Shown here piece after piece: positions 2,262 through 36,254 of a stretch of 42,866 nucleotides of DNA (position 1 is the first letter of the stretch; each line of letters begins with the position of its first letter). The DNA comes from Deltaproteobacteria bacterium (lineage in GTDB: Bacteria > Desulfobacterota > Dissulfuribacteria > Dissulfuribacterales > UBA3076): contig JAGYNZ010000024.1 of NCBI GenBank assembly GCA_018399745.1, positions 1 through 42,866 on the forward strand, given 5' to 3'. A program made the translations under genes and the position numbers. The notes beneath the pieces are model-generated. The model saw only the letters and a program-made list of their open reading frames with translations. It was not told where the DNA came from and did no database searches.

Positions 2262-5200
2262 CTAGTCAACTGCTTCCTCTATTTTTGCATAAAGTGTCTT
2301 CTGCTTATTAAATCTTTTATATACTTCCTTCATAATGGTATTAAAGACCAGTGTGCTGAAATCACCTTCTTCCATGAGCCTGTTAAACATCTCCTGGTTC
2401 TGGTCCATGCGGTCAATGACCTTGTCTTTATAGGCGTCCTCAAAGGGATATTTGAAATTATCGTATGTATTTGCCCTGGCCTGTGTTCCAAGCTCTTCAT
2501 CCCTCACACAGTCTTCCACTATCTGTTCAAAGAACAGGCGGTCTGCCTCTGTAAAATCAGTGCCGAACCGGTCATTAATGGTTTTGATAATATCAGAGAG
2601 GGGTGACTTTTCTTCATCCTTATCTCTTCGAATTCCGGCCTCGGTTGTTGGGGATAATTCGTATTCTCCGGTGGTTTCAAGGTCGATCTTTTTTTCCTCT
2701 ATCTTCTGCAGGCGGTAATATTCCAGTGCTATCTCGTCATCCAGTCTGAGGCGTTTTTGTATGTTGTCTTTGGGCAGCTTTCTGAGAAGAAACTTTATGT
2801 ATGGAAAAAACTTTTCCAGCTCAATGTCATTAAAGGGCATGATCTGTGAGAGAAAGGAATACAGCCTGGAAAAAGAGGTGAGGGCATTCTCAAAATCATC
2901 CTTGCTCATGCTTCCCTGAAGAGTGGTTTCTTCCGGTAATTCCTTAAACCTCTCCACCGCAGGGTCAAGATAGGCATTCAGCCTGGCCTGATTAATCACC
3001 TTGAATTCAGGCTGGAAATATACACTGGCAAAGCTGTCTACCTCTGACTGCCATATTACACCGGTATTTTCAATATTTGTCTTCAGGTCATAGAGATGAT
3101 TGGGGTCGGTTGTGGTCTCAAGGATTGTCTGTTCGTAATAGGGCTGAAATGACAGTTTTATGTCTTCCGCTTCATTTACAAAATCCAGCACAAAGGTGTC
3201 TTTCTTGCCGGGGCAGGTGCGGTTCAGTCGGGATAATGTCTGGACCGCCTTGACCCCTGACAGCTTTTTATCCACATACATGGTGTGAAGCAGGGGCTGA
3301 TCAAAGCCTGTCTGGTATTTATCCGCCACAATAAGGATGTTGTATCCCTCTGTAGCAAACTTTTTCGGTAGCTCTCCTTTCCCAAAACCGTTTATGACAG
3401 TCTCCTTGTATTCAATGCCCTTGTCGTTGACTATGCCTGAAAATGCCACCAGGGTCCTGATGTCTGTATATGCATTTTCATTTATATAGCGGTCAAACTC
3501 ATTCTTATATCGAATAGCGTGTAATCTGGAGGATGTAACCAGCATGGCCTTTGCCTGCCCGCCGATCTTCTTTGATACCACCTGTCTGAAGTGTTCCACC
3601 ATCACCTCTGTCTTCTGGCTGAGGTTGTGAGGGTGTAGGGATACAAATCTGGCTATGGCCCTTCTGGCCTTTTTCTTATCCACTCGGGGATCATTCTCAA
3701 TGGCCTTGGTGAGCCTGAAAAAGGTTTTGTAGGTGGTGTAATTTTTCAGCACATCAAGGATAAACCCTTCTTCAATGGCCTGCTTCATGGAATAGAGATG
3801 AAAGGGCCTGGGTTTGCCCTCTTTATCCTTTACCCCGAACACCTCCAGTGTTTTGGCCTTAGGCGTGGCGGTAAAACCGAAAAAGCTCAGGTTTTTATGC
3901 CGCCCTCTGGAAAGCATGGATTTTCGAATTTCATCTTCAATATCATCCGCATCGGGACCTTCCGCTTCTTCTTCCATGGCCTCTTCAAGGCTTTTACCGG
4001 CCAGCACCTCTTTGAGCTTGCGAGTGGATTCACCACCCTGGGAAGAATGTGCCTCATCAACAATCACGGCATAATTTTTTATGGCCCTCTCTCCATCCTT
4101 TTTTTCCATTTCGGCAATCTTTTCTATGACAAAGGGGAATTTCTGCAGGGTGGTGATTATGATATAGGAACCTTTATAGATTGCCTCGGCCAGCTGGGTA
4201 GAGTCCTTATCTATCTTTTTTACCACTCCTCTTTTGTGCTCAAACTGATAGATTGTATCCTGAAGCTGGTGATCCAGTACGTTTCTGTCAGTAACCACGA
4301 TTACAGAGTCAAACACCCGCTGATCAAGGGAATCATGCAGGCTGTAAAGGCGATAGGCCAGCCAGGCAATGCTGTTTGATTTGCCTGATCCGGCTGAATG
4401 CTGAACCAGATAGTGTTTACCCGCACCGTTTAATTTTGCGTGTTTAGACAGTTTACGTACTACATCAAGCTGATGATACCGGGGAAAGATCATCTTCTGC
4501 TTTATGCTCTTTTTACCCCTGATCTCCACTTCCTTTTTTTCTATATGGAGGAACCGGCCTATAATGTCCATCCAGCTATCCCTGGTCCATACATATTTCC
4601 ACAGGTAGTCTGTTCGGTAGCCCTCAGGATTGGGAGGATTTCCCCTGCCGGTATGAAATCCCTTATTAAAGGGCAGGTACGCTGTCCTGGAACCGGCAAG
4701 CCTGGTGGTCATCCAGGCCTCATCCGTATCAACAGTAAAGTGAACAAGCGCCCTTTTATTGAACTGAAACAGTAATTCTTTAGAGTCCCGGTCAAACATA
4801 TACTGTTTCTGGGCATTGATGACATTCTGACCGGTCATGGGGTTCTTAAGCTCTATGGTGGCCACAGGAAGGCCGTTAAGGCCCAGTACCATATCCACAG
4901 AGTTTTCATTTTTAAGGCTGTATTTTACCTGTCTGGTGACTGTAAGGATGTTGGAATCATACAGGCGTTGCGTATCAGGGTTAAGACTGGTTTCAGGCTT
5001 GAAAAAAGCCATCTTGAAATTGACGCCGTAATCAGTAAACCCCTTTCTTATTATCTCAAGGCACCCCTGGTTATTGATTACCTTTATGATTCTGTTTATG
5101 ACACTGGTCTCGATGTTTGGGCCGTGGATGTTTTCCAGCCTCTGCCATTCCTTCGACTGTGAGTTTTTGAGAAAGGAGATAAGGGTCTTTTTATCAATGG

Positions 5201-5309
5201 CAGTCTCCCGGTCAAAGTATTCAGGAGAGCCCTTGATATAACCACCGTGGATTAACAGTTCCTGCTCAATGGCCTCTTCAAAGGTATGCTCTGTATGTAT
5301 GCCCGGCAT
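2262..5309 (-). CDS. hsdR: Type I restriction enzyme R subunit (HsdR)
   Basis: This is the 1015-residue motor and nuclease subunit of a type I restriction-modification complex. The N-terminal PD-(D/E)xK nuclease motif is intact (D139, then E153-L-K155 in ATIELKN). The superfamily 2 translocase follows with Walker A AGSGKS (~306-311), DEAH box (VDEAHSSQGG, ~408) and motif III FTATPK. The SF2 motif VI region is QTLSRLNRT. The C-terminal ~250 residues are helical and probably dock to HsdM/HsdS. The ATG overlaps the hsdS stop in a TAATG junction, so translation is coupled. Length and motifs match the family, and nothing appears broken. Confidence 0.95.
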   Translation of the reverse strand: MPGIHTEHTFEEAIEQELLIHGGYIKGSPEYFDRETAIDKKTLISFLKNSQSKEWQRLENIHGPNIETSVINRIIKVINNQGCLEIIRKGFTDYGVNFKMAFFKPETSLNPDTQRLYDSNILTVTRQVKYSLKNENSVDMVLGLNGLPVATIELKNPMTGQNVINAQKQYMFDRDSKELLFQFNKRALVHFTVDTDEAWMTTRLAGSRTAYLPFNKGFHTGRGNPPNPEGYRTDYLWKYVWTRDSWMDIIGRFLHIEKKEVEIRGKKSIKQKMIFPRYHQLDVVRKLSKHAKLNGAGKHYLVQHSAGSGKSNSIAWLAYRLYSLHDSLDQRVFDSVIVVTDRNVLDHQLQDTIYQFEHKRGVVKKIDKDSTQLAEAIYKGSYIIITTLQKFPFVIEKIAEMEKKDGERAIKNYAVIVDEAHSSQGGESTRKLKEVLAGKSLEEAMEEEAEGPDADDIEDEIRKSMLSRGRHKNLSFFGFTATPKAKTLEVFGVKDKEGKPRPFHLYSMKQAIEEGFILDVLKNYTTYKTFFRLTKAIENDPRVDKKKARRAIARFVSLHPHNLSQKTEVMVEHFRQVVSKKIGGQAKAMLVTSSRLHAIRYKNEFDRYINENAYTDIRTLVAFSGIVNDKGIEYKETVINGFGKGELPKKFATEGYNILIVADKYQTGFDQPLLHTMYVDKKLSGVKAVQTLSRLNRTCPGKKDTFVLDFVNEAEDIKLSFQPYYEQTILETTTDPNHLYDLKTNIENTGVIWQSEVDSFASVYFQPEFKVINQARLNAYLDPAVERFKELPEETTLQGSMSKDDFENALTSFSRLYSFLSQIMPFNDIELEKFFPYIKFLLRKLPKDNIQKRLRLDDEIALEYYRLQKIEEKKIDLETTGEYELSPTTEAGIRRDKDEEKSPLSDIIKTINDRFGTDFTEADRLFFEQIVEDCVRDEELGTQARANTYDNFKYPFEDAYKDKVIDRMDQNQEMFNRLMEEGDFSTLVFNTIMKEVYKRFNKQKTLYAKIEEAVD

Positions 5310-6640
5310 TATATCCTTTCCTCTCTGACATCAATCTTGCCGGTTACTACTTCACTGATAAGGGCCGTGCGGTATTCCTGTAGGAGCTCTATTTGTTTTT
5401 CTGATTTGGATATTATGGAGTCAATGCGGGAGGTTTCTTTTTCAAGGAATTTCACAATTTGTTTCTGTTCTGATACGGTTGGAATTATTAGTAGAAATTC
5501 ACGGATTTTATCCAAATGTAAATTTGTAACAGATGTTTTCTTGCTACTCTTAAATATTTGCTCATCAGCAACACCACTTTCGAAAATAAACATAAAATAT
5601 TCAGGAATAAGTTTATTAGATACAAATTTTATTAAGCATAAGCTAACAAAAATGCTAAACTCAAAATCCCAATCAATAACTTTAGTTATACCTATCGTGC
5701 CATTTTTAGATAAAAGCAGATCCCCTTTTTCAGGCTTACATCTTTTGATTAATATCTCATGCTCAGTTTCAGGTATGTATTTTATCTTATCCATGTCAAT
5801 TTTAGGAGACTGAATATCAGTAACTCTCAAAAAAGGGACTCCCTTCTCAACATAAGTAGGTGTCAAATGTGTGCCGTCAATAATCTGGTTTGTAATATGT
5901 TTCAATTTGGTTAAAATCCAATGCGCCGGTATCTCCCCCAGCCATTCAATCCCTGAATCCTTCATAGGGGCATCAGGATCAAGCCCTTTGGTGACTGCCT
6001 GATTAATAACAGCGGTGCGTTCTTCCTTGAGAAGTTCAATTAACCTTTTTTTCTTTTCAATAAGGGAATCTATCTGGGCGGTTTTGTGGTCAAGGTATTT
6101 GGCGATTTGGTTTTGTTCTGGGAGGGAAGGATTTAAAAAGCTATATTTCCCCACAGACTCCTGTGTTATCCCGAAAAAAGTAGTGCCTGTTTTTGTTAAT
6201 TCAATATGATGCTTAAATAAGATTGAATCTAACTGATAATATAAATATTTGGGAACGAATTCATTATTGAGAGGCCGTAACACTAATAGGTGACTATTTA
6301 ACGAGGCTTTACCTGGCAGATAATCTACATATAGCAATTTCCCGATTGTTCCATCTTTAGTTAAAAGCACATCGTCTTTTTGTAAATGAATTTCAGGAGC
6401 TTCCTCGTAACGCTTTTCTGGGATATGATAGACTTCATCCCAATTAATTCTACCATTTTTGAAATTCATCCCGGTAATTAAGTAAGGCCCTTCATCTGCA
6501 AATTCAGATTGTTTTAACCCTTGCCACCCTATCCGACCTTTCATATAACAAACTCGATTCAATTTAAGAAAATTCCAGCGATTCGGTATTATATCTATGG
6601 CTTCAATCCCTGAATCCTTATATTGAGGATAAGGCTTCAT
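5309..6640 (-). CDS. hsdS: Type I restriction-modification specificity subunit (HsdS)
   Basis: This 443-residue protein has the classical two-half architecture. Each half starts with KDSGIE...IP..W (residues ~8-22 and ~227-242), continues with a variable target-recognition domain, and ends with a conserved helix (LPEQNQIAKYLDHKTAQID and SEQKQIVKFLEKETSRID). The two recognition domains read the two halves of a bipartite asymmetric DNA site, and the helices set the spacing. The gene overlaps hsdM by 4 nt (ATGA) and hsdR by 1 nt. The recognition sequence cannot be inferred by eye. The variable domains are AT-richer than the neighbouring genes, as expected for a fast-evolving specificity gene. 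Confidence 0.95.
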   Translation of the reverse strand: MKPYPQYKDSGIEAIDIIPNRWNFLKLNRVCYMKGRIGWQGLKQSEFADEGPYLITGMNFKNGRINWDEVYHIPEKRYEEAPEIHLQKDDVLLTKDGTIGKLLYVDYLPGKASLNSHLLVLRPLNNEFVPKYLYYQLDSILFKHHIELTKTGTTFFGITQESVGKYSFLNPSLPEQNQIAKYLDHKTAQIDSLIEKKKRLIELLKEERTAVINQAVTKGLDPDAPMKDSGIEWLGEIPAHWILTKLKHITNQIIDGTHLTPTYVEKGVPFLRVTDIQSPKIDMDKIKYIPETEHEILIKRCKPEKGDLLLSKNGTIGITKVIDWDFEFSIFVSLCLIKFVSNKLIPEYFMFIFESGVADEQIFKSSKKTSVTNLHLDKIREFLLIIPTVSEQKQIVKFLEKETSRIDSIISKSEKQIELLQEYRTALISEVVTGKIDVREERI

Positions 6641-8373
6641 CCCAAGACCTCTTCCAGCAGGCCGTCTGTTTCCTTCTCCAGTGCCAGTATATCCGCCCTT
6701 ATCTCTACGAGTGGTCTCAATGGTTTATATTCATAGAAATATTTGGTGAAGTTGATTTCATATCCCACCCTGGTCTTTTTATGATCTACCCAGGCTTCAG
6801 GTACGTGGGGGAGCACTTCCCTTTCCATATATTCCTTAATATCTTCAGGGGATGATTCTTTTTTACCTTTTTTCAGGGGGATGTTTTCATAATCCCTTAA
6901 ACTGCTGTCCGGCTTTTGCTTGCCCTGCTTATCGGTTATTATTCTGCCGTTTTCTATAAGGGGCCGTTCAACTGTAATACGGCTGTATCCAAAGTCAGAG
7001 TTATTGAATATTTTGCAGCATTTCCCTTCCTTAAAATCTCCGTATATCCGGGTTATCTCTGCGATGTCATGATCAGATATCTCGTTCCTTTTATTTCCCA
7101 TTGAGCGGCTCATTCTATGGAAGAAACTCACTGCATTCACCAGCTGGACCTTGCCTTTTCTTCTGGGCTCCTTGCGGTTTGTACAGACCCAGAAATAGGT
7201 CAGTATACCGGTGTTGTAGAAGAGCTGGTCAGGCAGAGCCACAACCGCCTCCAGCATGTCGTTTTCTATGATCCATCTGCGTATCTCACTTTCTCCGCTT
7301 CCGGCGCTTCCGGTAAATAATGGAGATCCGTTGAATACAATGGCCAGGCGGGAACCCCCATCTGTGGGCTTCATCTTTGAGATCATATGCTGCAGAAACA
7401 GGAATGAACCATCTGATATGCGGGGAAGACCGGCTCCGAATCTTCCGCCATAACCCTTTTGCTCATGCTCCTTTTTTACTTCCTTCTGGACCTTTTTCCA
7501 CTCCACGCCAAAAGGCGGATTGGCCAGCATATAATCAAATTTATCATCAGGGAACTGGTCATTGGTAAAGCTGTTTCCAAACTTTATGTTGACCGCCTTC
7601 TGACCCTTGATCATCATATCTGATTTACATATGGCATATGACTCATCATTGAGTTCCTGGCCAAATACCTCAAGCCTTGCATCCGGGTTAAGCTCATTAA
7701 GGTATTCCTCTGCTATGGACAGCATTCCCCCTGTACCGCAGGCACAGTCATAGAGTGTCTTAACAATGCCCTTTCGGGAGAGGATGTCTCCGTCATGGAT
7801 AAACAGGAGGTTGACCATAAGCCGGATTACTTCCCTGGGTGTAAAATGCTCTCCGGCTGTCTCATTGGATATTTCAGCAAACTTGCGAATAAGCTCTTCA
7901 AAGACATAACCCATATGCATGGAAGAGACAGTCTTGGGATGAAGGTCTATCTTGGCAAATCTCTCCAGTACCAGGAAGAGGAGATCCTGTTGATCGAGGT
8001 ATGTTATCTGGCCGTTAAACTTGAATTTTTCTATTATCTCCCGGGCATCTTTTGAGAAACCGTTAATGTAATTACGGAGGTTCATGGCCAGGTTGTTGGG
8101 GTCGGCAATCAGTTTTTGGAAATCAAACCTGCTCCTGTTATGAAAGTTGTATCCTGCCACTTTGTTGAGGACAGTCTCCATGGCATCTTCATTGAGATTT
8201 TTTACGGAGTCATATTTTGCCAGGACCCTGTCTTTGGTTTTCTCCAGTACACAATCCAGCCTTCTCAATACAGTAAAAGGGAGAATCACCTTTCCATATT
8301 CAGCCTGTTTGTAGTCACCCCTCAGCAGGTCAGCTACCGACCATATAAAATTAGCAAGTTCTCTGTTGTTCAT
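6637..8373 (-). CDS. hsdM: Type I restriction-modification adenine methyltransferase (HsdM)
   Basis: This is a 578-residue N6-adenine methyltransferase subunit. The N-terminal HsdM helical domain (residues 1-~140) leads into the SAM-binding domain. Visible motifs are GEHFTPREVIRLM, the SAM motif DCACGTGGML and the catalytic NPPFG (motif IV). It is the first gene of the hsdM-hsdS-hsdR operon, and the ATGA overlap with hsdS indicates coupling. The complex protects self DNA and restricts unmethylated DNA. Start at 8373 gives the expected MNNRELANFIW N-terminus. The upstream gap holds tandem operator-like dyads. Confidence 0.95.
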   Translation of the reverse strand: MNNRELANFIWSVADLLRGDYKQAEYGKVILPFTVLRRLDCVLEKTKDRVLAKYDSVKNLNEDAMETVLNKVAGYNFHNRSRFDFQKLIADPNNLAMNLRNYINGFSKDAREIIEKFKFNGQITYLDQQDLLFLVLERFAKIDLHPKTVSSMHMGYVFEELIRKFAEISNETAGEHFTPREVIRLMVNLLFIHDGDILSRKGIVKTLYDCACGTGGMLSIAEEYLNELNPDARLEVFGQELNDESYAICKSDMMIKGQKAVNIKFGNSFTNDQFPDDKFDYMLANPPFGVEWKKVQKEVKKEHEQKGYGGRFGAGLPRISDGSFLFLQHMISKMKPTDGGSRLAIVFNGSPLFTGSAGSGESEIRRWIIENDMLEAVVALPDQLFYNTGILTYFWVCTNRKEPRRKGKVQLVNAVSFFHRMSRSMGNKRNEISDHDIAEITRIYGDFKEGKCCKIFNNSDFGYSRITVERPLIENGRIITDKQGKQKPDSSLRDYENIPLKKGKKESSPEDIKEYMEREVLPHVPEAWVDHKKTRVGYEINFTKYFYEYKPLRPLVEIRADILALEKETDGLLEEVLG

Positions 8374-12973: not shown

Positions 12974-14285
12974 ATGTGGAATCCCGCAATATTGATCGTT
13001 GAACGGGATAAAATCTTGCGTCAAGATCTGAAAGATCGTTTATGTCGCCATGGATTTGAGGTCATCGAAGCATTGAATAAAAGAGATGCACTCCGATTTT
13101 TTCAAGCCAGGAAGCCTGATTTCGTGATCATAAACTCTTCTGGGAACAGTAGCACAAATGGGCTTAAGACAGTAATGCAGATCCGTCGGCAGGACAGAGA
13201 AGTCCCGCTCTTCCTGATCACCCAAAATAGCTCTGAAGCGCTGGTTATTGCGGCCTTAAGGGCAGGGGTCACGGACTATTTCAAATGGTCCGTCTCGTAC
13301 GAGGAATTGATGGCAAGTATCAACCGAAACCTCTCGTACCACAAAGGAAGCCTTTCGGAAACAGGGATTGACAAGCCGATGATCGGTGACAGTGCGGCAA
13401 TGCGGGAAATCAAGACTTATCTCGTAAAGGTTGCTATGACAGACAGCACTGTCCTCATCACAGGCGAGACCGGCACAGGCAAAGAGCTTGCGGCCGAGCT
13501 GATCCACCGGAACAGCACGAGGCACAAAAAGCCTTTTGTCTGTGTCAACTGCGCCGCCCTTCCCGAGAGCTTGGTAGAAAGCGAGATGTTTGGTTACGAA
13601 CGAGGAGCCTTCACAGGGGCTTTTGCTTCGAAACAGGGTAAATTCGAACTGGCCGAGGGTGGAACCGTATTTCTGGACGAAATCGTTGACATGAGCCCTT
13701 ATGCACAGATGAAAATCCTGAGAACTACTGAAAAAAAAGAGGTCTGCCGTATAGGGGGCAAGAGGGCAATACCCATAAACGTCCGGATCGTAAGTGCGAT
13801 AAATCGCGATCCTGAGCAATTGATGGAAAAAGGCAATTTCAGAAAAGATCTATTACCGCCTCAATGTGGCCCGGGTCCACCTGCCCCCATTACGCTTACG
13901 GAAGGAGGACATTCCTTCCTTGCTCAAGCACTATATCAGAAAATTCAATCAGCGGTTTGGCCGCGAAGTCGAAGGCCTTACAGAAGAAGCCATGGCTTTC
14001 CTGCTCCACTATGATTGGCCTGGCAATGTGCGCGAACTGAAGAACATCCTAGAGGCTACCTTTATCAATCTCTCCTCCCGGAAGATCGCCTTAATGGACC
14101 TGCCGAAGGCGTTCCAAAGTCGACTCAAGGAAACAGAAGGTCTCCCCGAAAAGGAGAGGGACCGGCTCCTTTCCGTCCTCTTCACCACCAAGTGGAACAA
14201 GAGTAAGGCTGCACAGAAACTCCACTGGTCCCGGATGACCCTCTACCGCAAAATGGCGAAATACCATATAAGTACTTCACAATAA
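12974..14285 (+). pseudogene. NtrC-type sigma-54-dependent response regulator, frameshifted
   Basis: Two frames together make one regulator of ~437 codons. The first contains a receiver-like domain (~1-120) and an AAA+ domain with Walker A GETGTGKE, the sigma-54 contact loop GAFTGA and Walker B TVFLDEI. After FRKDL at ~13853 two bases are missing: inserting them would give the canonical DLYYRLNV, and the second frame continues from ARVHLPPLR through the sensor region DWPGNVREL to a Fis-type helix-turn-helix (NKSKAAQKL...SRMTLYRKM) ending at 14285. The usual phospho-acceptor aspartate is replaced (FVIINSSG), so the receiver was probably not phosphorylated even before the frameshift. A TTGACA at 12846-12851 may belong to its promoter. 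Confidence 0.85.
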
Positions 14286-14331: not shown

Positions 14332-14634
14332 TCAGCGTGGGAATTTGTAAAGGTCGTCGTGGTCCAAAAGACGTAGCAGAAGAACACTCGTTGTCCAATC
14401 CGGATTTCCCGAAAGAAGGAAATCTTCTGGGTCAAATGATATTCTAAATTTGCGGTCGACCCGCACAGACCAAGCAGTGGGGTCGTTGACAATCCGTTCA
14501 AGGTTAAGGCCAGGATGAAGCGGATTATTCTCAAGATGGGTCAGGGTCTTGGCGATTTTTTTCCGCATGGTCGCATTCGATCGGAATTTTTCAATATCCT
14601 TAAGAAATTTTTGGGTCGGTACCAGTTTTGGCAT
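14332..14634 (-). CDS. RelE/ParE-superfamily toxin
   Basis: This 100-residue basic protein has the RelE/ParE layout: an N-terminal helical part (KFLKDIEKFRSNATMRKKI), then a beta-sheet with WSVRVDRKFRISFD and a C-terminal LLRLLDHDDLYKFP strand. RelE relatives cleave mRNA on the ribosome, and ParE relatives inhibit gyrase. The exact type cannot be told by eye. It overlaps the upstream antitoxin by 35 nt, typical of a coupled type II toxin-antitoxin pair with the antitoxin first. Confidence 0.8.
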   Translation of the reverse strand: MPKLVPTQKFLKDIEKFRSNATMRKKIAKTLTHLENNPLHPGLNLERIVNDPTAWSVRVDRKFRISFDPEDFLLSGNPDWTTSVLLLRLLDHDDLYKFPR

Positions 14635-14875
14635 TCTTCATGTCCTTGACAAGCCAATTGGGTAGTGTGCCAGTTCCGCTTTCCCTGGCCTCCTGGAGTT
14701 TGGCAAGCCCCCTATCATTGAGTCGAAGATCGCGATAGATGGAAACAGGATGGAGCATGATAGTCCCTCCCTCCGCAACTGCCAGATCAAGATACGACCC
14801 GTTTTCCAGCCCAAGCTCTTTTCTAAGCCCGGCCGGCAAATTGATACTTCCCCGTTTGTCTATGGTAATTAGCAT
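14600..14875 (-). CDS. AbrB/MazE-type antitoxin
   Basis: This 91-residue protein begins MLITIDKRGSINLPAGLRKE, the AbrB/SpoVT swapped-hairpin DNA-binding motif, followed by LGLENGSYLDLAVAEGGTIML. The C-terminal ~40 residues are charged and probably wrap the toxin. GGAGGA stands ~6 nt before the ATG. It is expected to bind its own promoter and neutralise the overlapping RelE-like toxin. Confidence 0.8.
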   Translation of the reverse strand: MLITIDKRGSINLPAGLRKELGLENGSYLDLAVAEGGTIMLHPVSIYRDLRLNDRGLAKLQEARESGTGTLPNWLVKDMKNAKTGTDPKIS

Positions 14876-17187: not shown

Positions 17188-18909
17188 TTACATCATCTGC
17201 AAGGTCCACCCCTTCATGATGCTTATGGGCTTGGACCATATCTGTCCTGACCGCTTCTTCTGGTCATAGTGGCCGACCACTTCGTCTCCTTCGAAAACCC
17301 TTCCTTCCTGGAGCGTCAGGTCTCGACCTTCTATGTTCACCGTAGCCTTCCTGTCCGGCATGATGTTCATGTTGAAAACTCTCTGATCCTCCTGAACAGA
17401 CTTGACGGCCCTGAGAGTTTCAAGCTCCTGACTCGTGTTCTGCAGTTCATCCCGCATCAGAGCGGATTCCTGCCGGAATCTGTTTATCTCCTCTGTGAGC
17501 CTTTCGTTTTCGGTCCGGAGGACCTTGTTCTCTTCTTTCAAGTTCTTGACTCGGGCAGTGTCGCCTTTGACCACTCTCTTATGCTTGTTGGTCCTGGATC
17601 TTGTAGTTGCTTCTTTTTTTGTCCATTCCTGAACTACCGGGTCCACGGCAGAGACCGGAACCATATCAATATCCTCCGGCCAGAATACCGGGTTTTTCTG
17701 TTCGGGGTCATCCCCACCGGAAGCAGAATTGTGCGGTGAGCAGGGCATCACGAAGTGCATGAGTCCTGACCCTGAAGTCAGCATTGCCGGCATACTGTCG
17801 CTTGAAAAAGACAATACCAGGATACTGTCCATGACCCCGGCTCCCTCCATGAGATATCTGCCGTTAAAGGCAATACAGAATGGAACCCCCGTATAATGAC
17901 ACGGGATGGCAACCTTGTGACGAATCTTCTCGTCCATGACTTCAATCTGGAGTCGGCCCGACCGAGCTTCCAGGAGCACTATATCAGAACCATCAAGAGC
18001 CTTGGCCGTTTGGACTATCTCCTTTATTTCTGCAAGGAAGTCATCACGCCTTATTACGACATTCGCCCCCTGCCATTTGGGTATATTCACCGCGTTCCGG
18101 TAATCCGGATAGTTCATCGGCCAGTCCTGGATCATTTCTGTCCGGAAATGAGAGCCCTGGACTGTAAGCCTGCTTCTGTGTTCATGGATCTTGTCAAGGC
18201 TGAAACGCACTGTTTCATCCTTTTCTACCGCTGATTGCAGGACCTTCGCTATGCTGACAGGAAGCAGAAACTGAAGGGCGTTGTTCCCGGAAAGAGAGTC
18301 TTTCTTTTCTCTCTCCCATGAAGAACTCACACCGGCAACAGACAGTCGATGACCGTCGGTTCCCACCATTCTGAAGCCATCAGGAGACCACTCCCAGCAT
18401 ACCGATGAAAGGTTTGAGTGACGGGAATGATCCGACAAAGCGAAAGGAACAGTACTTGAGAGCGAGTGGGCTATTTCCTTTCCTGAAGACTTTCCTTTCA
18501 GCATCCTCAGGATCTTCCACTGATTGCCTTCAGGATCCTTTGGCTTCCTGACATCTTCTATGGTGTTGAGAGTCTCATCTATCCAGTCCGTGTCCGGATT
18601 TGTTTCGATTCGGCTTCCGGACACGTCAAGAAAATTCTCAACCGTTCGCAGCGTCAAGACACCCTTCCTGGTCCTGGTTATTTTCTGAAGGATCTTGGTG
18701 TCCACCGGGACCTTTCCATATTCCTCTGCTTCCGCCGGAATCAGGATTTCCACTGTGCCGAAGATGCACGGGAAGTCTTGAACGACCAGGGTCATGGACA
18801 GTCCATTCTCTGAAGCGGTCATCAATCCGAAGGGAATCATCGGATCTCTTGCCTTGTTTATTATTTGAAGTGCATTCAGCAGTTCTTTCTGTTCTATCTT
18901 TACTAACAT
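17188..18909 (-). CDS. Sliding-clamp (DnaN/Pol III beta)-like protein with coiled-coil C-terminal extension
   Basis: This 573-residue protein has the three-domain beta-clamp pattern over ~393 residues. Domain 1 has VDTKILQKITRTRKGVLTL; domain 2 has GFRMVGTDGHRLSVA; domain 3 has PDYRNAVNIPKWQ, FNGRYLMEGAGVMDS and the closing HFVMPCS. Ordinary clamps end there at ~370 residues. This one adds ~180 residues: a Pro-rich linker, a coiled coil (~455-505, KNLKEENKVLRTENERLTEE and on) and a small basic domain ending MKGWTLQMM. It is the last gene of the SSB-RadC-ArdC module, before the 17062 terminator. The ATG at 18909 has AAGGAGGC upstream. It probably serves replication or repair of the mobile element; this role is inferred. 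Confidence 0.85.
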   Translation of the reverse strand: MLVKIEQKELLNALQIINKARDPMIPFGLMTASENGLSMTLVVQDFPCIFGTVEILIPAEAEEYGKVPVDTKILQKITRTRKGVLTLRTVENFLDVSGSRIETNPDTDWIDETLNTIEDVRKPKDPEGNQWKILRMLKGKSSGKEIAHSLSSTVPFALSDHSRHSNLSSVCWEWSPDGFRMVGTDGHRLSVAGVSSSWEREKKDSLSGNNALQFLLPVSIAKVLQSAVEKDETVRFSLDKIHEHRSRLTVQGSHFRTEMIQDWPMNYPDYRNAVNIPKWQGANVVIRRDDFLAEIKEIVQTAKALDGSDIVLLEARSGRLQIEVMDEKIRHKVAIPCHYTGVPFCIAFNGRYLMEGAGVMDSILVLSFSSDSMPAMLTSGSGLMHFVMPCSPHNSASGGDDPEQKNPVFWPEDIDMVPVSAVDPVVQEWTKKEATTRSRTNKHKRVVKGDTARVKNLKEENKVLRTENERLTEEINRFRQESALMRDELQNTSQELETLRAVKSVQEDQRVFNMNIMPDRKATVNIEGRDLTLQEGRVFEGDEVVGHYDQKKRSGQIWSKPISIMKGWTLQMM

Positions 18910-18981
18910 TATGGTGCCTCCTTATCAGTTTCCGAATCGGAAATTGTGTTTTCTCTATCCGATATTTTCAAGTGAGAAATT

Positions 18982-19038
18982 GGGAGGCAAACCGTTATCC
19001 CATACCGGGGATCAGGTTTTGCCTCCCTGGTGCGGGAT
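18982..19038 (-). promoter_or_regulatory. Stem-in-stem leader element, copy G (before the DnaN-like gene)
   Basis: In the minus-strand transcript, CCC-GCACCA-GGG is followed by outer arms GGGAGGCAAAACC and GGTTTGCCTCCC (12 bp with one bulge) that enclose ATCCC-CGGTAT-GGGAT. The outer arm begins with the GGG of the first hairpin, so the two folds exclude each other. It ends 73 nt before the start codon at 18909. Confidence 0.7.
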
Positions 19039-19078
19039 ATGTTCATGTCTTACGAATGATCTCTATGCCTGAAATGCT

Positions 19079-19753
19079 TCAGGTTTTCGAATCACCTTTT
19101 TCTGCCATTTTGAGGATGACATCCATTTCGTTCTTCATGAATGGATGAATTGAGGGTCGGCAGCCTAGATCAATGTCCAGCAGATAAAAGCCGTCTTCAT
19201 CGCAATGAGGATGTTCCTTGAAGTAATCTACGGCCTTTCCGATGACCTCATGGTCGCAGATTGCCGAATTTTTCCTGAAGGGTCCTGAGACGATTTCCGG
19301 CTCTACGTCTCCATACACCCTGACGAAAAAGCCGGTATGCAGAGCTGACCTGTGGCCCAGCCAATGGGAAACGGGAGTGCTGTCCTCCATAACGACAGGT
19401 TCAGAATATCTGAGCGGATGAACCGCACTGCGCTCAATGGCGTATCCCCATCTGGAGTCGTCATCGCCCAGGAATTCCATTGATGTGCGACTTCCGGGTC
19501 TGATGACCTTACTGACGAACTTCGCCAGCAGATTGTCTGCATCGTGCTTCGCGTGCCGGGCGTCTCCAGGATCGAATGATGCATAGCCCTGCTCAACCCG
19601 AAAGCAATAGGTTTCGAGATAGGCGGGACCTGCAACAGGTGATTCTGACTTTTGCTCTTCCTCTTTGATGAACTGCTCAAAAGCTCTGTCCAGCTCAACC
19701 TGGCAAAGCTCGGTCTCAAAGCCGTCAAATTCTATACTGCTGTTGTATGCCAT
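19079..19753 (-). CDS. Mobile-module protein of unknown function
   Basis: This is an acidic 224-residue protein that I do not recognise. It is soluble, with no signal or membrane segment, and contains many aromatic and acidic residues (for example DDDSRWGYAIERSAV and HPHCDEDGFYLLDIDL). The ATG at 19753 follows AAAGGAGGAG, and leader copy A lies just upstream. Location between the DnaN-like gene and another unknown gene implies a role in maintenance or transfer of the element. No catalytic motif is evident. Confidence 0.75.
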   Translation of the reverse strand: MAYNSSIEFDGFETELCQVELDRAFEQFIKEEEQKSESPVAGPAYLETYCFRVEQGYASFDPGDARHAKHDADNLLAKFVSKVIRPGSRTSMEFLGDDDSRWGYAIERSAVHPLRYSEPVVMEDSTPVSHWLGHRSALHTGFFVRVYGDVEPEIVSGPFRKNSAICDHEVIGKAVDYFKEHPHCDEDGFYLLDIDLGCRPSIHPFMKNEMDVILKMAEKGDSKT

Positions 19754-19782
19754 GTAGTCTCCTCCTTTTGAATGACTCCCGG

Positions 19783-19827
19783 AAGAGACGGCTCCCCACC
19801 GGGAAAGTCGTCTCCCCCGGGCGGGGT
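19783..19827 (-). promoter_or_regulatory. Stem-in-stem leader element, copy A
   Basis: The transcript reads CCCC-GCCC-GGGG, then outer arms GGGAGACG and CGTCTCTT (8 bp, two G-U pairs) enclosing TCCC-GGTG-GGGA. It ends 30 nt before the ATG at 19753. The following leader GTCATTCAAAAGGAGG closely resembles that of copy B. Confidence 0.7.
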
Positions 19828-19873
19828 CAATTGATCAGTCCGCATTGCGGGCCGATTTTGGATATGAAGGTTA

Positions 19874-20437
19874 TCAGTGAAGGTCCAGTGGGACCAGGTA
19901 GATATCCTGATCTTCGTGAAGGCTGTTAAAGACCTCAGCCACCTCTTTATCCGTAGGGATTATGGACCTGAAGGTCGTAACAGCGTCATAGAATCCGCTG
20001 TCAAACCTGTAGTTGCCCTGAATAATTTCCAGCAGTTTACGGGCGGACCATGTGGCTTCTGATTCAATCTGAACGTGTTCGCTGTTCTCCATCAGATTGG
20101 CGATCTGTGCAAACAGTTCCGCTCCGATCCTTGCCGGGTCCAGAGGTGCATTGACAGGGATATCCATGTCCAGATCCCTTGCCAGATGATTCAGAACTGA
20201 TTTGTACAGGTTGGCCCTTGCTCTTCTGACTTGTGCAAGAATTCCCAGGAACAAGGGCATGTTCCTCCTGTAGCTTACCGGTGCAGGATAGACGTCTTTC
20301 CAGAGACCGGGACCCTCTGCATGAGAATCGTATGCGCGGCTGCGGTACGATTCAATGGCATAGTCTGCCTCACAAAAGAGAGCCTCCGCATCGGTTTCCC
20401 GGTCGCTTGCAAGATAGATGAAATGAATTGCATGCAT
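19874..20437 (-). CDS. Mobile-module protein of unknown function
   Basis: This 187-residue protein begins MHAIHFIYLASDRETDAEAL. It has no family I recognise. It is mostly helical in appearance with a basic middle (QVRRARANLYKSVLNHLARD) and an acidic end (VFNSLHEDQDIYLVPLDLH). The ATG at 20437 follows AAAAAGGAGGACACC, and this site rules out an in-frame ATG 42 nt upstream that would run into leader copy B. Its role is presumably tied to the SSB/ArdC/clamp module. Confidence 0.75.
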   Translation of the reverse strand: MHAIHFIYLASDRETDAEALFCEADYAIESYRSRAYDSHAEGPGLWKDVYPAPVSYRRNMPLFLGILAQVRRARANLYKSVLNHLARDLDMDIPVNAPLDPARIGAELFAQIANLMENSEHVQIESEATWSARKLLEIIQGNYRFDSGFYDAVTTFRSIIPTDKEVAEVFNSLHEDQDIYLVPLDLH

Positions 20438-20460
20438 GGTGTCCTCCTTTTTGAATGTCA

Positions 20461-20506
20461 GGGGACAACACGACCCCATGGGGGAGATGTCGTCCCCCGG
20501 CGGGGT
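20461..20506 (-). promoter_or_regulatory. Stem-in-stem leader element, copy B
   Basis: CCCC-GCC-GGGG overlaps outer arms GGGGACGACA and TGTTGTCCCC (10 bp with one G-U pair) enclosing the palindrome CCCCATGGGG. It ends 24 nt before the ATG at 20437, just upstream of the Shine-Dalgarno sequence. Confidence 0.75.
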
Positions 20507-20523
20507 TTGTTGTGTAGGGAGCT

Positions 20524-21414
20524 TCAGGCGGCTTCGGTAAGGGACTCGGTCTCTTCAGTAAGACCCGCCTCTTTCAGTATATATTCGCTTGCCTCCTGGG
20601 CCTTTCTGGAGGCGGTAAAAATGGCCTTATTGTCTCCCTTCAGGACTTGTATCCAGCTACCAATGTATTCCGGATGACGCAGTTCCCGAAAAGAGAGACC
20701 GGTGTGGGCCCCGAGAAACGCCGAGCCTATTTCCGCCACAAGCTCTTCAAAGGCGTAGGCCTCATCTCCGAACCTCTTGCCGAAAACCCTGGCCAGCCTG
20801 GATTCATGGCCGGTCCAGTGTACGACCTCGTGAAGGCCGGTACCGTAGTAGTGTTCAAGGGTTTCGAAGGCATGCCTGTGCGGCAGATAGACACAGTCCT
20901 TCTTAATGGCATAGAAGGCCCTGGAACCGCAATGATGAACTTCCGGGAGTGCAATGATCCGCTCCGCACGATGGTTCACTTCATCACCGAAGGTCTTTTT
21001 GTTTTCTGCCTCCTCTTCAAATGGCCTTATGCGCAGGTCTTCGCACTGCGTCACATTAAAGACGCTGTAGGTCTTTACCAGGGGAATGACTCTCTTCTCC
21101 GGCCCATTATCGTTTTCCGGATCATCCGGATCATCGATATTGATGAACTTCCAGAACACGACGCTGGTCGCGGTTTCGCCTTTCCTGACGTGGCCGCCCA
21201 GCTTCTTTGCGTCTCTGAAAGTGACCCATCTGGGGTCCGCATATCCCTTTGCCAGTGCCGTAATGTTTAACACCAGGACATTTATTCCCCTGTACGGACG
21301 GCCTGAGAGACCGTTTCTATTCATCCAGTTGTTTTTCCACGGCCTGATCCAGGGTCCTACCCCGGCTTCAAGCGCATCGATGATTTTACTGGTTACTTCT
21401 TCATAGACATTCAT
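20524..21414 (-). CDS. ArdC-like antirestriction / ssDNA-binding metallopeptidase-fold protein
   Basis: This 296-residue protein has the two-domain ArdC layout. The N-terminal ssDNA-binding domain (DUF1738-type) reads NVYEEVTSKIIDALEAGVGP, W..PW, GRPYRGINVLVLN, WVTFRDAKKLGGHVRKGE and VVFWKF. A C-terminal zincin-like domain follows, with HEVVHWTGHESRL and a later glutamate in ELVAEIGSAFLG as a possible third metal ligand. ArdC proteins of conjugative plasmids protect entering single-stranded DNA from restriction. I take ATG 21414 because CAGGAGGACAAGTC precedes it; a longer frame reading would translate leader copy C. It sits in the same accessory region as a type I restriction system. Confidence 0.85.
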   Translation of the reverse strand: MNVYEEVTSKIIDALEAGVGPWIRPWKNNWMNRNGLSGRPYRGINVLVLNITALAKGYADPRWVTFRDAKKLGGHVRKGETATSVVFWKFINIDDPDDPENDNGPEKRVIPLVKTYSVFNVTQCEDLRIRPFEEEAENKKTFGDEVNHRAERIIALPEVHHCGSRAFYAIKKDCVYLPHRHAFETLEHYYGTGLHEVVHWTGHESRLARVFGKRFGDEAYAFEELVAEIGSAFLGAHTGLSFRELRHPEYIGSWIQVLKGDNKAIFTASRKAQEASEYILKEAGLTEETESLTEAA

Positions 21415-21446
21415 GACTTGTCCTCCTGAGTATGAGAAAATGAAAA

Positions 21447-21494
21447 GGGGACAGGCCACATCCCCCCTGGGAGCGGACTCGCCCCCTGACAGGG
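21447..21494 (-). promoter_or_regulatory. Stem-in-stem leader element, copy C
   Basis: CCCT-GTC-AGGG overlaps outer arms starting GGGGGCG, paired with TGTCCCC (7 bp with G-U pairs), enclosing TCCC-AGGG-GGGA. It ends 33 nt before the ATG at 21414. Confidence 0.65.
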
Positions 21495-21532
21495 ATGGCA
21501 GTGAACTTTTGGTGTGGTCAAAAAAAGCTTTC

Positions 21533-22006
21533 TCAAAGATGGCCAAGCTCTTTAAGGGAGCTGACATCTCCACCGATCACCAAATGGTCCAGGACTTTTA
21601 CATCAATGACTTTAAGGATCTCTTTTAGCCTATGCGTAAGGCTGATGTCTTCCGGACTCGGCGAGCTGTCGCCGGAAGGGTGATTATGTGCAAATATTAC
21701 GGCTGCTGCGTTCAACTCCATGGCCTTTCTTATTATTGGCCGTGCGTACACCGTTGTATGACAAATGCTGCCTTGAAACATCTCTGCATAATGAATCAGA
21801 TGGTTTTGACCATTCAGAAACAGGCAGGAAAAGACCTCGTGGTGTCTGTCCGCCATATTTATTTGGATTGCTGTTTTTGCTTCCTGTGGCGAAGCTATTC
21901 TTACGCCGGGCTTCAGCTTGGTGCTAAGTAATCGTTTGGCTTCATGGATAACCTGTTCCATGGAAGCCACCTCGTAATTTCCATGATTATCCTTGACATA
22001 GAGCAT
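21533..22006 (-). CDS. RadC-like JAB-domain protein
   Basis: This 157-residue protein consists of the RadC/JAB metalloprotease-like domain without the N-terminal helix-hairpin-helix part of chromosomal RadC. It carries EVFSCLFLNGQNHLI, then the metal-binding pattern AHNHPSGDSSPSPED (HxH...S...D) and DHLVIGGD. Short RadC proteins of this type are standard passengers of integrative and conjugative elements and defence islands. Their biochemical role is unsettled despite the old DNA-repair name. GGAGACGAATC precedes the ATG. Confidence 0.9.
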   Translation of the reverse strand: MLYVKDNHGNYEVASMEQVIHEAKRLLSTKLKPGVRIASPQEAKTAIQINMADRHHEVFSCLFLNGQNHLIHYAEMFQGSICHTTVYARPIIRKAMELNAAAVIFAHNHPSGDSSPSPEDISLTHRLKEILKVIDVKVLDHLVIGGDVSSLKELGHL

Positions 22007-22030
22007 GATTCGTCTCCTTTTTTGCTGAAC

Positions 22031-22079
22031 GAGGACGAACCATGTCCCCGGCAGGGACTTGATCGTCCCCGCTGTGGGT
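22031..22079 (-). promoter_or_regulatory. Stem-in-stem leader element, copy D
   Basis: CCC-ACAGC-GGG overlaps outer arms GGGGACGA and TCGTCCTC (8 bp with one G-U pair) enclosing GTCCC-TGCCG-GGGAC. It ends 25 nt before the ATG at 22006. A further 6-bp hairpin ACAGGG/CCCTGT lies upstream in the transcript (22083-22099). Confidence 0.7.
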
Positions 22080-22110
22080 TAAACAGGGGTTTTCCCTGTG
22101 CATTGTTCAA

Positions 22111-22198
22111 AAAAACAGCCCGAAAAGGCCGCCTGAGCGGATGGCGTCAGGGCCAACCACGCACTGATGCATATCAGGGGGTTCCGGGCTGTTTTGAG
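22111..22198 (-). terminator. Long-loop terminator-like structure after ssb
   Basis: On the minus strand ACAGCCCG (22192-22185) pairs with CGGGCTGT (22122-22115) across ~60 nt that can itself fold (GGCC ... GGCC). A run of Ts follows directly. It lies between the ssb stop and leader copy D, so it may reduce read-through into radC. Confidence 0.5.
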
Positions 22199-22205
22199 TC
22201 TTGAA

Positions 22206-22607
22206 TCAGAATGGCATGTCTTCGTCTTCAGACGGCAGAGAGGGCACATCCTCAGCGTGATGGATCTCTTTGTCCTTATTGCCGCTGATGATCTGGATTT
22301 CCCTTGCGACCACCTCGGTCACATACTGCTTGTTGCCGTCCTCGTCCTCCCAGGAACGGGTCCGGAGCCTGCCTTCTGTATAGATTCGACTTCCTTTTGC
22401 AAGGTATTCGCCGCAGATCTCCGCAAGGCGTCCCCATGCGATTATGCGATGCCATTCGGTCTCTTCCTGCCATTCTCCATTCCGTTTTACCGGGGTATTG
22501 GTGGCGAGGTTGAGATTGACGACCGCCGTTCCGCTCTGGGTATGACGAACTTCAGGATCAATGCCGAGATTTCCCAGCAGGATAACTTTGTTGACTCCGT
22601 GTGCCAT
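22206..22607 (-). CDS. ssb: Single-stranded DNA-binding protein (SSB)
   Basis: This 133-residue SSB has the OB fold from the start (VNKVILLGNLGIDPEVRHTQ, ETEWHRIIAWGRLAEICGEY, KGSRIYTEGRLRTRSW) and the acidic tip DEDMPF that recruits replication and repair partners. ATG 22607 follows GAAAGGAGAAGACATC; the longer frame upstream would read through leader copy E. An SSB carried with ArdC and RadC is typical of conjugative or integrative elements, where it coats incoming strands. Confidence 0.95.
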   Translation of the reverse strand: MAHGVNKVILLGNLGIDPEVRHTQSGTAVVNLNLATNTPVKRNGEWQEETEWHRIIAWGRLAEICGEYLAKGSRIYTEGRLRTRSWEDEDGNKQYVTEVVAREIQIISGNKDKEIHHAEDVPSLPSEDEDMPF

Positions 22608-22631
22608 GATGTCTTCTCCTTTCAATCGACA

Positions 22632-22687
22632 GGGGAGAGACGGCACAGGTCCCCTGCGGGGCGGCAACATCTCTCCCCGCTGAGGGT
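22632..22687 (-). promoter_or_regulatory. Stem-in-stem leader element, copy E
   Basis: CCC-TCAGC-GGG overlaps perfect 9-bp outer arms GGGGAGAGA/TCTCTCCCC enclosing CCCC-GCA-GGGG. It ends 25 nt before the ssb ATG. Confidence 0.75.
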
Positions 22688-22696
22688 GATTTTGGT

Positions 22697-23176
22697 TTAC
22701 AGTGCAATTCTTTCAATGACCCTGTTAAGCAACAGGATAATGCTTCTCCATTCGTGCCTCTGAAGAGCTATGGAGGTCTTCTTGAGGCCTTCCCCGTTCT
22801 TGCGGTTCAGATATATGAACCGCGCTAACGGATCGGTTCCGGCAACGACCTTCATACTGGCTGTGTCGGTGCCCTCTTGTTTCTCATCGCCTTTGTATCT
22901 GTCATGGAAGGTGTTGAAGAGAACAATAGAGCCGTTTTCCTTATCTCCTTCCTGAGGTCTGGGCATGGAATCGGCGAGTCTGGTGATGTCGTCGAGTTCC
23001 AGGCGGATCCTGACAAAATCGACCTGCTCGTCCTTTCGTCCGGGCCATCCGAACTCTTTCCTGTCGGACACCTGATTGGCGATGGTAATGAAAACCGATT
23101 TTTTGGCAGGGTTGAAATCCAGCTCGAATGCTGAACCCTTGCCGTCATTGCGTGGATGATAGATCTGGTAAGCCAT
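22697..23176 (-). CDS. Mobile-module protein of unknown function
   Basis: This 159-residue protein starts MAYQIYHPRNDGKGSAFELD and appears to be mainly beta-sheet in its first half (FELDFNPAKKSVFITIANQV), with a helical C-terminus (EWRSIILLLNRVIERIAL). I do not recognise the family. GGAGGAGGTAC precedes the ATG at 23176. It is the first gene of the module, directly before ssb. Such small beta-rich partners of SSB may bind ssDNA, but that is a guess. Confidence 0.75.
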   Translation of the reverse strand: MAYQIYHPRNDGKGSAFELDFNPAKKSVFITIANQVSDRKEFGWPGRKDEQVDFVRIRLELDDITRLADSMPRPQEGDKENGSIVLFNTFHDRYKGDEKQEGTDTASMKVVAGTDPLARFIYLNRKNGEGLKKTSIALQRHEWRSIILLLNRVIERIAL

Positions 23177-23300
23177 GTACCTCCTCCTTTTTTTGTGATT
23201 TTTGCCCATTGTCATCCTGTAAGGTCCAGGAACCCATATTTGGCTCAGGGAAACGTAATGGGGATTGCGAGCCGTTCCCTAAAGCAAACGACCCGGCAAA

Positions 23301-23366
23301 GAAGGAGATCATAGACGCACCGGCACCCCTGGCAGGGGACGGAAAATCTCCCCCCACGCCGGGGTT
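23301..23366 (-). promoter_or_regulatory. Stem-in-stem leader element, copy F (longest, first in module)
   Basis: CCCC-GGCGT-GGGG overlaps outer arms GGGGGAGAT and ATCTCCTTC (9 bp, two G-U pairs) enclosing CCCC-TGCCA-GGGG. Unlike the other copies it lies 125 nt from its gene (23176). Confidence 0.6.
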
Positions 23367-23563
23367 GATAAGGTATTTTTGCTGTTTTTACCCTTCCTCT
23401 TGTCGCGGCAGGGAAAAACATAATCGATTGCGTATCGAGGGATCATCTCCCCCAACACACTTGATCCACGCCAACCACACGCAGGGAAAACGAACCTGCC
23501 CTCCTGAGGAACGAGGCGAGTCGGCGCAACCTCAGATACCAAAATAAACCAATTATCAAAGAA

Positions 23564-23602
23564 CGTACCTTAATTATAAAGTACGATTCTGAAGAATATC
23601 AA
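23564..23602 (-). promoter_or_regulatory. Probable module promoter with overlapping inverted repeat
   Basis: On the minus strand TTGATA (23602-23597) and TATAAT (23578-23573) are 18 nt apart. An inverted repeat CGTAC/GTACG (23564-23568 and 23581-23585) flanks the -10 box. Transcription would start near 23566 and leave a ~390-nt leader before the first gene. Nothing else clear is in 23367-23722. Confidence 0.6.
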
Positions 23603-23722
23603 CGATAGCAATCGGGAAAGACGTGTCCTTAACTCGGTTTTTTCCCGGGCACGCGGTAAAGACTTCTCGAGCCTCGTCTTGCACAGGATCACACTGTGGT
23701 TAGAAATAGGTTAGAAAAAATG

Positions 23723-23752: not shown

Positions 23753-23764
23753 CCTTGATTTTAT

Positions 23765-23841
23765 TGGTACGCCAGGAGGGATTCGAACCCCCGACCTACG
23801 GATTCGTAGTCCGGCGCTCTATCCAGCTGAGCTACTGGCGC
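23765..23841 (-). tRNA. tRNA-Arg (anticodon ACG)
   Basis: The minus strand forms a full cloverleaf: acceptor arms GCGCCAG and CTGGCGT, D arm GCTC/GAGC, anticodon loop CTACGAA with ACG, T arm with GGTTCGAATCC, and an encoded CCA. The first acceptor pair is G-U and the top of the anticodon stem is weak. Accessory genes lie on its 3' side and core genes on its 5' side, the usual geometry of tRNA-targeted islands. Confidence 0.95.
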
Positions 23842-35843: not shown

Positions 35844-36081
35844 ATCAAAAGTTCCTTTTTTGAATTTGCAAAAACCGAAATGACATGGTCATAATACCAT
35901 GGTCACTTTAAAAATTCAAGCTGAAATATTATCGAGGCTTCGCCTCACCCCATGATATTGACCGTCTTTAACAGCCAACTCCCCGAAAGTTATCATCTCG
36001 AAAAATAGGGCAAGGTGGAAAGAGGATTTAACTGCTTCATTCACAAAAACAGTGTATAATACGAGTTCGCTTTTACCTAAG
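35844..36081. other. Upstream region of the PIN pair
   Basis: Apart from the repeated CATGGTCA motif listed separately, I see no gene in the gap 35844-36469. Its right part is occupied by the inverted repeat element 36082-36254 and the palindromic unit 36342-36417. Confidence 0.5.
35884..35905 (-). promoter_or_regulatory. Operator-like repeat of the PIN toxin-antitoxin pair
   Basis: CATGGTCA occurs at 35884-35891 and 35898-35905 (14 nt period). The minus-strand TATTAT (35898-35893) between them could be the -10 box. It lies ~40 nt upstream of the antitoxin start. Confidence 0.5.
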
Positions 36082-36254
36082 TTGAGCGATTAGCTGTTAG
36101 CCATTAGCGTTTAGCTTTGAAAAATCAAGGCATTACGTTAATTAAAAATAACACCCGTCGGTCTGCTGCCCTGACAAGACAGGTGAAAGTTTGTAATAGC
36201 AAAAATCCTGTAATCATTAAACTAATAGCTAACCGCTAAAGGCTAATCGCTTAA
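36082..36254. repeat. Inverted-repeat element, TTAGC-rich family
   Basis: The left arm (36082-36118, TTGAGCGATTAGCTGTTAGC and on) and the reverse complement of the right arm (36212-36254) are similar over ~40 nt and enclose ~93 nt. The right arm is nearly identical to 24570-24612 in inverted orientation. It may be a MITE or REP-like unit; no ORF is inside. Confidence 0.65.

Follow-up and report, generated by a model that had tools for sequence, protein, structure and literature searches.

The window, i.e., the whole analysed stretch of 42,866 nucleotides, encodes a sliding clamp extended by a long C-terminal tail, and we consider it rather likely that this protein is an element-borne second beta clamp of the DnaN family within an establishment/recombination module. 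The initial annotation gave the gene its correct coordinates; the strand is corrected here to minus, with a product of 573 amino acids, and inspection of the plus-strand frames across 17188–18909 shows many stops. The gene and its parts are:

17188–18909, minus strand: tailed beta-clamp gene (573 amino acids, ATG start, stop codon at 17188–17190)
17737–18909, minus strand: clamp body, three clamp domains, residues 1–391 (hhalign, Foldseek)
17545–17736, minus strand: acidic spacer, residues 392–430 (net charge −7), then basic linker, residues 431–455 (net charge +8), by residue charge count, at low pLDDT
17389–17559, minus strand: coiled coil, residues 451–507 (modelled helix; heptad heuristic)
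17191–17364, minus strand: C-terminal beta-strand domain, residues 516–573 (profile matches), common to SNF2-like helicases of other elements

Residues 1–391 are a complete, divergent three-domain beta clamp. In hhalign, a query profile of three tailed clamps is collinear over 1–391, without rearrangement, with a target of 15 canonical DnaN (probability 99.95%, E 2e-38), which settles positively the profile comparison with DnaN suggested in the initial annotation. Pfam detects the central (E 2e-6) and C-terminal (E 1e-5) clamp domains in the 573-residue protein; the N-terminal domain is not detected by Pfam at its proper place in the window copy, because it is too diverged, and is above the Pfam cutoff in a full-length relative (E 4e-8). 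The presence of all three beta-clamp domains, claimed earlier from the sequence, is thus borne out by hhalign, Foldseek, and Pfam, the latter for domains 2 and 3 in the window copy and for domain 1 in the relative. TIGR00663 (dnaN) is matched with E 8e-17 and 61.3 bits, under the cutoff of 137.65 (73 and 48 bits for two relatives); therefore, the protein is homologous to clamps without qualifying as a DnaN equivalog. The AlphaFold2 monomer model, built on an input alignment of 65 clamps, has a mean pLDDT of 78, and all top 50 of 50 Foldseek matches in PDB are sliding clamps (best E 7.5e-26; TM up to 0.82 over the target). The model hence has the expected clamp fold, although the match is not fully independent, since the AlphaFold2 input alignment itself consists of clamps.

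Aligned with canonical DnaN, the window clamp is very divergent (about 17–25% identity). It retains 25 of the 42 positions conserved at at least 75% in 65 canonical clamps, including T184, D185, R188, L189, P268, Y270, M388, and P389, which correspond to the partner-peptide cleft region; the remaining 17 well-conserved positions are altered, the LIDG motif (here MIQD) among them. The partner-cleft residues are mostly retained in the window protein and partly altered in one of its relatives, from genome G026 (T to S, D to E, R to T).

The reading of the initial annotation depended on this not being the only DnaN of the host, and that possibility is ruled out. The window's own genome, G000 (2.65 Mb, 97.5% complete), encodes one other DnaN of 382 amino acids, at G000:C5, adjoining gyrB; its nearest match among named contigs is a Thermodesulfobacteriales DnaN (43%). 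The window clamp is, therefore, a second clamp. Separately, genome G005 has two ordinary-length DnaN (L033, G005:C81), one of which lies immediately downstream of a DnaA-like gene.

Beyond the clamp body, the protein has about 180 extra residues; to our knowledge, extra domains on sliding clamps are rare. The coiled coil, earlier placed at about 455–505, is recovered as a modelled helix of residues 451–507 at pLDDT about 92. The terminal domain, described as basic in the same annotation, is neutral (9 Lys/Arg vs. 8 Asp/Glu in the last 58 residues), and the basic part is the linker 431–455 (10 Lys/Arg, 2 Asp/Glu), with a basic stretch visible also in both tailed-clamp relatives. Taken alone, the C-terminal domain yields a weak single-sequence model (mean pLDDT 66.7) with no PDB match at E ≤ 0.001.

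Two further genomes of the order (G013 and G026) have full-length tailed clamps, 23–24% identical to that of the window, so that the tailed clamp is seen in 3 of 46 genomes of the order, across three families, and in 1 of 8 within the genus; these counts rest on three clamps from draft genomes. A scan of the genome contigs added only clamps without the tail, which none of the loci had. The location of both relatives' tailed clamps in conjugation-type elements is supported: in the G013 element, a tyrosine integrase gene lies right next to tRNA-Arg(acg), and TraC- and TraD-type proteins, SSB, a Cas4-like nuclease, the clamp, and DUF932 are also encoded; the G026 clamp locus has a TraD-type protein, an HD-domain protein, SSB, Rad52, Cas4-like, RadC, orf242, and ArdC. 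Homologues of the window SSB, RadC, ArdC, and orf224 occur in G026, and of the window SSB in G013; the co-occurrence that the initial annotation proposed to look for is hence seen with SSB in G013 and with SSB, RadC, and ArdC in G026. TraI_2 matches in G000, G013, and G026 cover a short stretch only and were not taken as relaxases. A phage or prophage origin was considered and rejected, as searches of phages, plasmids, and IMG/VR gave no close match.

Searched against 395 genomes of the phylum, the profile of the three clamp tails finds the tail domain at the C-terminal end of SNF2-like helicases (E 2e-7 to 7e-5 for one genome); in G152 it lies in a separate 117-residue frame (E 3e-11) adjoining and overlapping an SNF2-like helicase. 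These helicase-type carriers (L148–L153) belong to G316, G388, G245, and G152, and a profile rebuilt with the helicase tails recovers the same carriers and no further ones in the 395-genome sample. Outside clamps, the domain occurs in this sample only with SNF2-like helicases of similar modules, whose neighbourhoods in G316 and G388 contain Rad52-like, Cas4-like, SSB, RadC, DUF932, or ArdC genes. Plasmid homologues listed for the SNF2-like helicase match its body only (up to about residue 681), without the C-terminal domain. A single DnaN is present in each genome with the tailed helicase, and among the tailed-clamp genomes G000 and G013 give no match to the helicase, and G026 a weak match only (29%); no genome with both carriers is seen among those checked (three vs. 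four, draft genomes).

The sharing of the domain bears on an explanation that we regard as possible, though not likely, namely that the protein is a DNA-bound scaffold without polymerase processivity, a topological tether that keeps RadC, an annealing protein, or a remodeller, as the partner of the tail, on the transferred DNA. SNF2-like translocases would be another means of moving a passenger along DNA, and no polymerase gene turned up in the module, both consistent with a scaffold; however, the polymerase-peptide cleft residues are largely retained in the window protein, which argues for a clamp that still engages partners through the cleft.

In the window, the clamp gene is followed, in the direction of a tRNA gene, by:

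19079–19753, minus strand: orf224 (homologue beside the tailed clamp in G026, 38.5% identity, E 8e-18)
19874–20479, minus strand: orf201 (likely start 20437; no family match)
20524–21573, minus strand: ArdC, with ArdcN and a zincin-like peptidase (likely start 21414; Pfam E 6e-38 and 1e-41)
21533–22006, minus strand: RadC (JAB domain; Pfam E 1e-39)
22206–22670, minus strand: SSB (likely start 22607; Pfam E 2e-37; 52% identical to the SSB of the G013 element)
22697–23215, minus strand: orf172, the first gene on the tRNA side (DNA of 22759–22907 lies beside the same tRNA in G005, next to 23696)
23765–23841, minus strand: tRNA-Arg(acg), candidate attachment site, with the module 3′ of the tRNA; also beside the integrase in the G013 element

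Pfam confirms SSB, RadC, and ArdC as the neighbours among which the clamp had been placed, and the assignment of the clamp to a mobile-element module at tRNA-Arg is supported. G005 shares with the window the tRNA side and part of orf172 but lacks 22908–23695; similarity of G002 and G008 to the window ends at 23754 and 23722, respectively, just past the tRNA 3′ end. The tRNA-Arg(acg) site is common to two elements, those of the window and of G013. The G+C content of the module (0.49–0.53) is higher than that of most of the flanks. No second copy of the tRNA end (flanking direct repeat) is seen in the window, whose left part ends with the contig. There is no integrase or T4SS gene among the window ORFs scanned, and no match to a VirB4-type ATPase in assembly G000; hence, the element of the window may be a remnant or non-autonomous.

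Apart from a processivity factor of the element, the initial annotation suggested a decoy. The element-borne clamp stands, the decoy gained no specific evidence, and the choice between the two remains inferential. A decoy or inhibitor would occupy the host clamp loader or partners, or form mixed rings with host DnaN, slowing replication or blunting repair of the incoming DNA; a peptide cleft partly retained while much of the body diverged, and the anti-restriction-type ArdC among the neighbours, are compatible with it. We nevertheless consider it unlikely, as three very diverged relatives keep all three clamp domains, needless for a simple binder, and the neighbours are DNA-processing genes; clamp genes elsewhere on plasmids adjoin Rad52 or ssb.

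Several other features of the window were recorded. A type I restriction-modification operon (HsdM, HsdS, HsdR) at 2262–8373 looks complete; a Sigma-54-type response regulator at 12974–14285 is split across two frames, apparently a frameshifted gene; a small gene pair at 14332–14875 resembles a toxin–antitoxin system (weak ParE-like match, MazE-like antitoxin). Tandem arrays consist of several copies of 108-nt units (1–540) and of 15-nt units over about 460 nt (1563–2027), and short stretches of 36071–36251, present also beside nth in related genomes, suggest a dispersed repeat.

Most genes of the modules are preceded by about 100 nt comprising a 5′ arm and an anti-SD arm along with the SD, with gene-specific but covarying sequences. 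The clamp gene has:

18910–19040, minus strand: leader with alternative hairpins, the SD (GGAGG) predicted to be paired in the MFE state (folding prediction)

Folding of this leader has z −3.9, reached by 0 of 200 shuffles, with a predicted probability of 0.99 for the SD being paired and an SD-free alternative predicted to be 5.2 kcal/mol less stable. RNAalifold on the raw leader alignment gives four pairs only; therefore, permutation and a comparison with background genes were used to test the complementarity of the arms. SD regions fit their own leaders above those of other genes (sum 719 vs. 592 ± 19; 0 of 20000 permutations), and anti-SD arms fit their own 5′ arms (599 vs. 413 ± 22; 0 of 20000), although the leaders of one element are possibly related copies, and the permutation counts are thus not independent events. 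Strict leader criteria are passed by 11 of 22 genes in two relatives (L040 and L041) vs. 0 of 543 background genes. Among the upstream regions within 18910–22705 of the window, only that of orf224 passes and the clamp leader falls below, so the leaders of the window, that of the clamp included, are weaker; taken by itself, SD-to-anti-SD complementarity is weak in several genes of the window. Predicted folds hide the SD in most leaders examined, and in silico an alternative hairpin frees it. As modelled, these structured leaders can either conceal the ribosome site or leave it open, a feature that is strong in both relatives and weaker in the window. The Rfam covariance-model search of the leaders gives no match at the gathering score; the radC RNA motif (RF01754), tried as a candidate, has no match at E up to 5 in the window module or up to 1 in two relatives.

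With no integrase or transfer genes in view and leaders weaker than those of the relatives, the element may be decaying. That the protein itself is a relic, i.e., a formerly functional element clamp without a present role in a decaying island, would agree with the integrase and T4SS not seen in the window, the assembly without a VirB4-type match, the weak leaders, and the nearby regulator gene split between frames; it is very improbable in our estimation, given the intact 573-codon frame with a good ribosome site and the compact, intact neighbours on the same strand.

The most likely role, we infer, is that of an element-specific clamp during establishment or recombination-coupled DNA synthesis. 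A tether or recruitment function is favoured because the tail domain is common to a translocase, and binding of partners through the clamp because the cleft residues are retained; the probable task of the tail would be to recruit a helper protein to the DNA of the element. The protein would form a ring on this DNA, loaded by the host loader; the two tails of a dimer may pair as a coiled coil on one face, with the basic linker near DNA. The C-terminal domain would dock a partner that other elements may reach via the SNF2-like translocase. The clamp could then tether the partner and a polymerase when, after entry or excision, the complementary strand is synthesised or synthesis depends on annealing, acting with the SSB of the element and, in relatives, with Rad52-type and Cas4-like nuclease proteins, while the structured leader would probably keep translation low until activation of the element.

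More tentatively, with somewhat less than even confidence, we propose that related elements put one docking domain either on a sliding clamp (via the coiled coil) or on an SNF2-like translocase, as two ways of carrying a passenger, and that each gene of the module, the clamp gene included, is under its own two-state leader hiding or exposing the SD, with covarying arms and no Rfam match. A tailed clamp with a domain shared by a translocase would be a direct handle on what conjugative elements bring to DNA during establishment, and suggests a natural means of linking a passenger topologically to DNA. Should the leaders be confirmed, they would represent undescribed gene-by-gene translational control in mobile elements.

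Compared with bacterial DnaN (the Pol III beta clamp; TIGR00663, PF00712/PF02767/PF02768), the window protein has a three-domain body collinear over the canonical length, a matching fold, and a partly retained cleft, but differs in adding the spacer, basic linker, coiled coil, and beta domain, in scoring below the TIGR00663 cutoff, and in its gene belonging to a mobile module, in addition to a separate dnaN of the host. Plasmid and phage DnaN (e.g., Cytobacillus p1, Thermoanaerobacterium pMU3262, Azospira pAZI09; phrog_947) are likewise second clamps on mobile replicons, frequently with Rad52, ssb, or PRTRC/JAB genes as neighbours; however, the 10 plasmid dnaN inspected are all of ordinary length (360–398 amino acids), without the tail and with no close sequence relation to the window clamp. 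The SNF2-like helicases (Helicase_C/ResIII; G388, G316, G245) of conjugation-type modules have the C-terminal domain in common with the tailed clamp, and their neighbours include SSB, Rad52-like, Cas4-like, RadC, ArdC, or DUF932, like those of the clamp modules, whereas the remainder of the protein is an ATPase rather than a clamp. The leading-region establishment genes of conjugative plasmids combine SSB and anti-restriction-type genes in one module (PMC11541004), as in the window, and ArdC-N and RadC are discussed for polyvalent-protein systems (PMC5512222); the main text of neither mentions DnaN or a sliding clamp, and no paper on a tailed clamp or on a clamp among establishment genes was found in the open-access literature. 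Plasmid- and phage-borne DnaN are, then, already known; what looks new is the tail and the fact that a helicase shares it.
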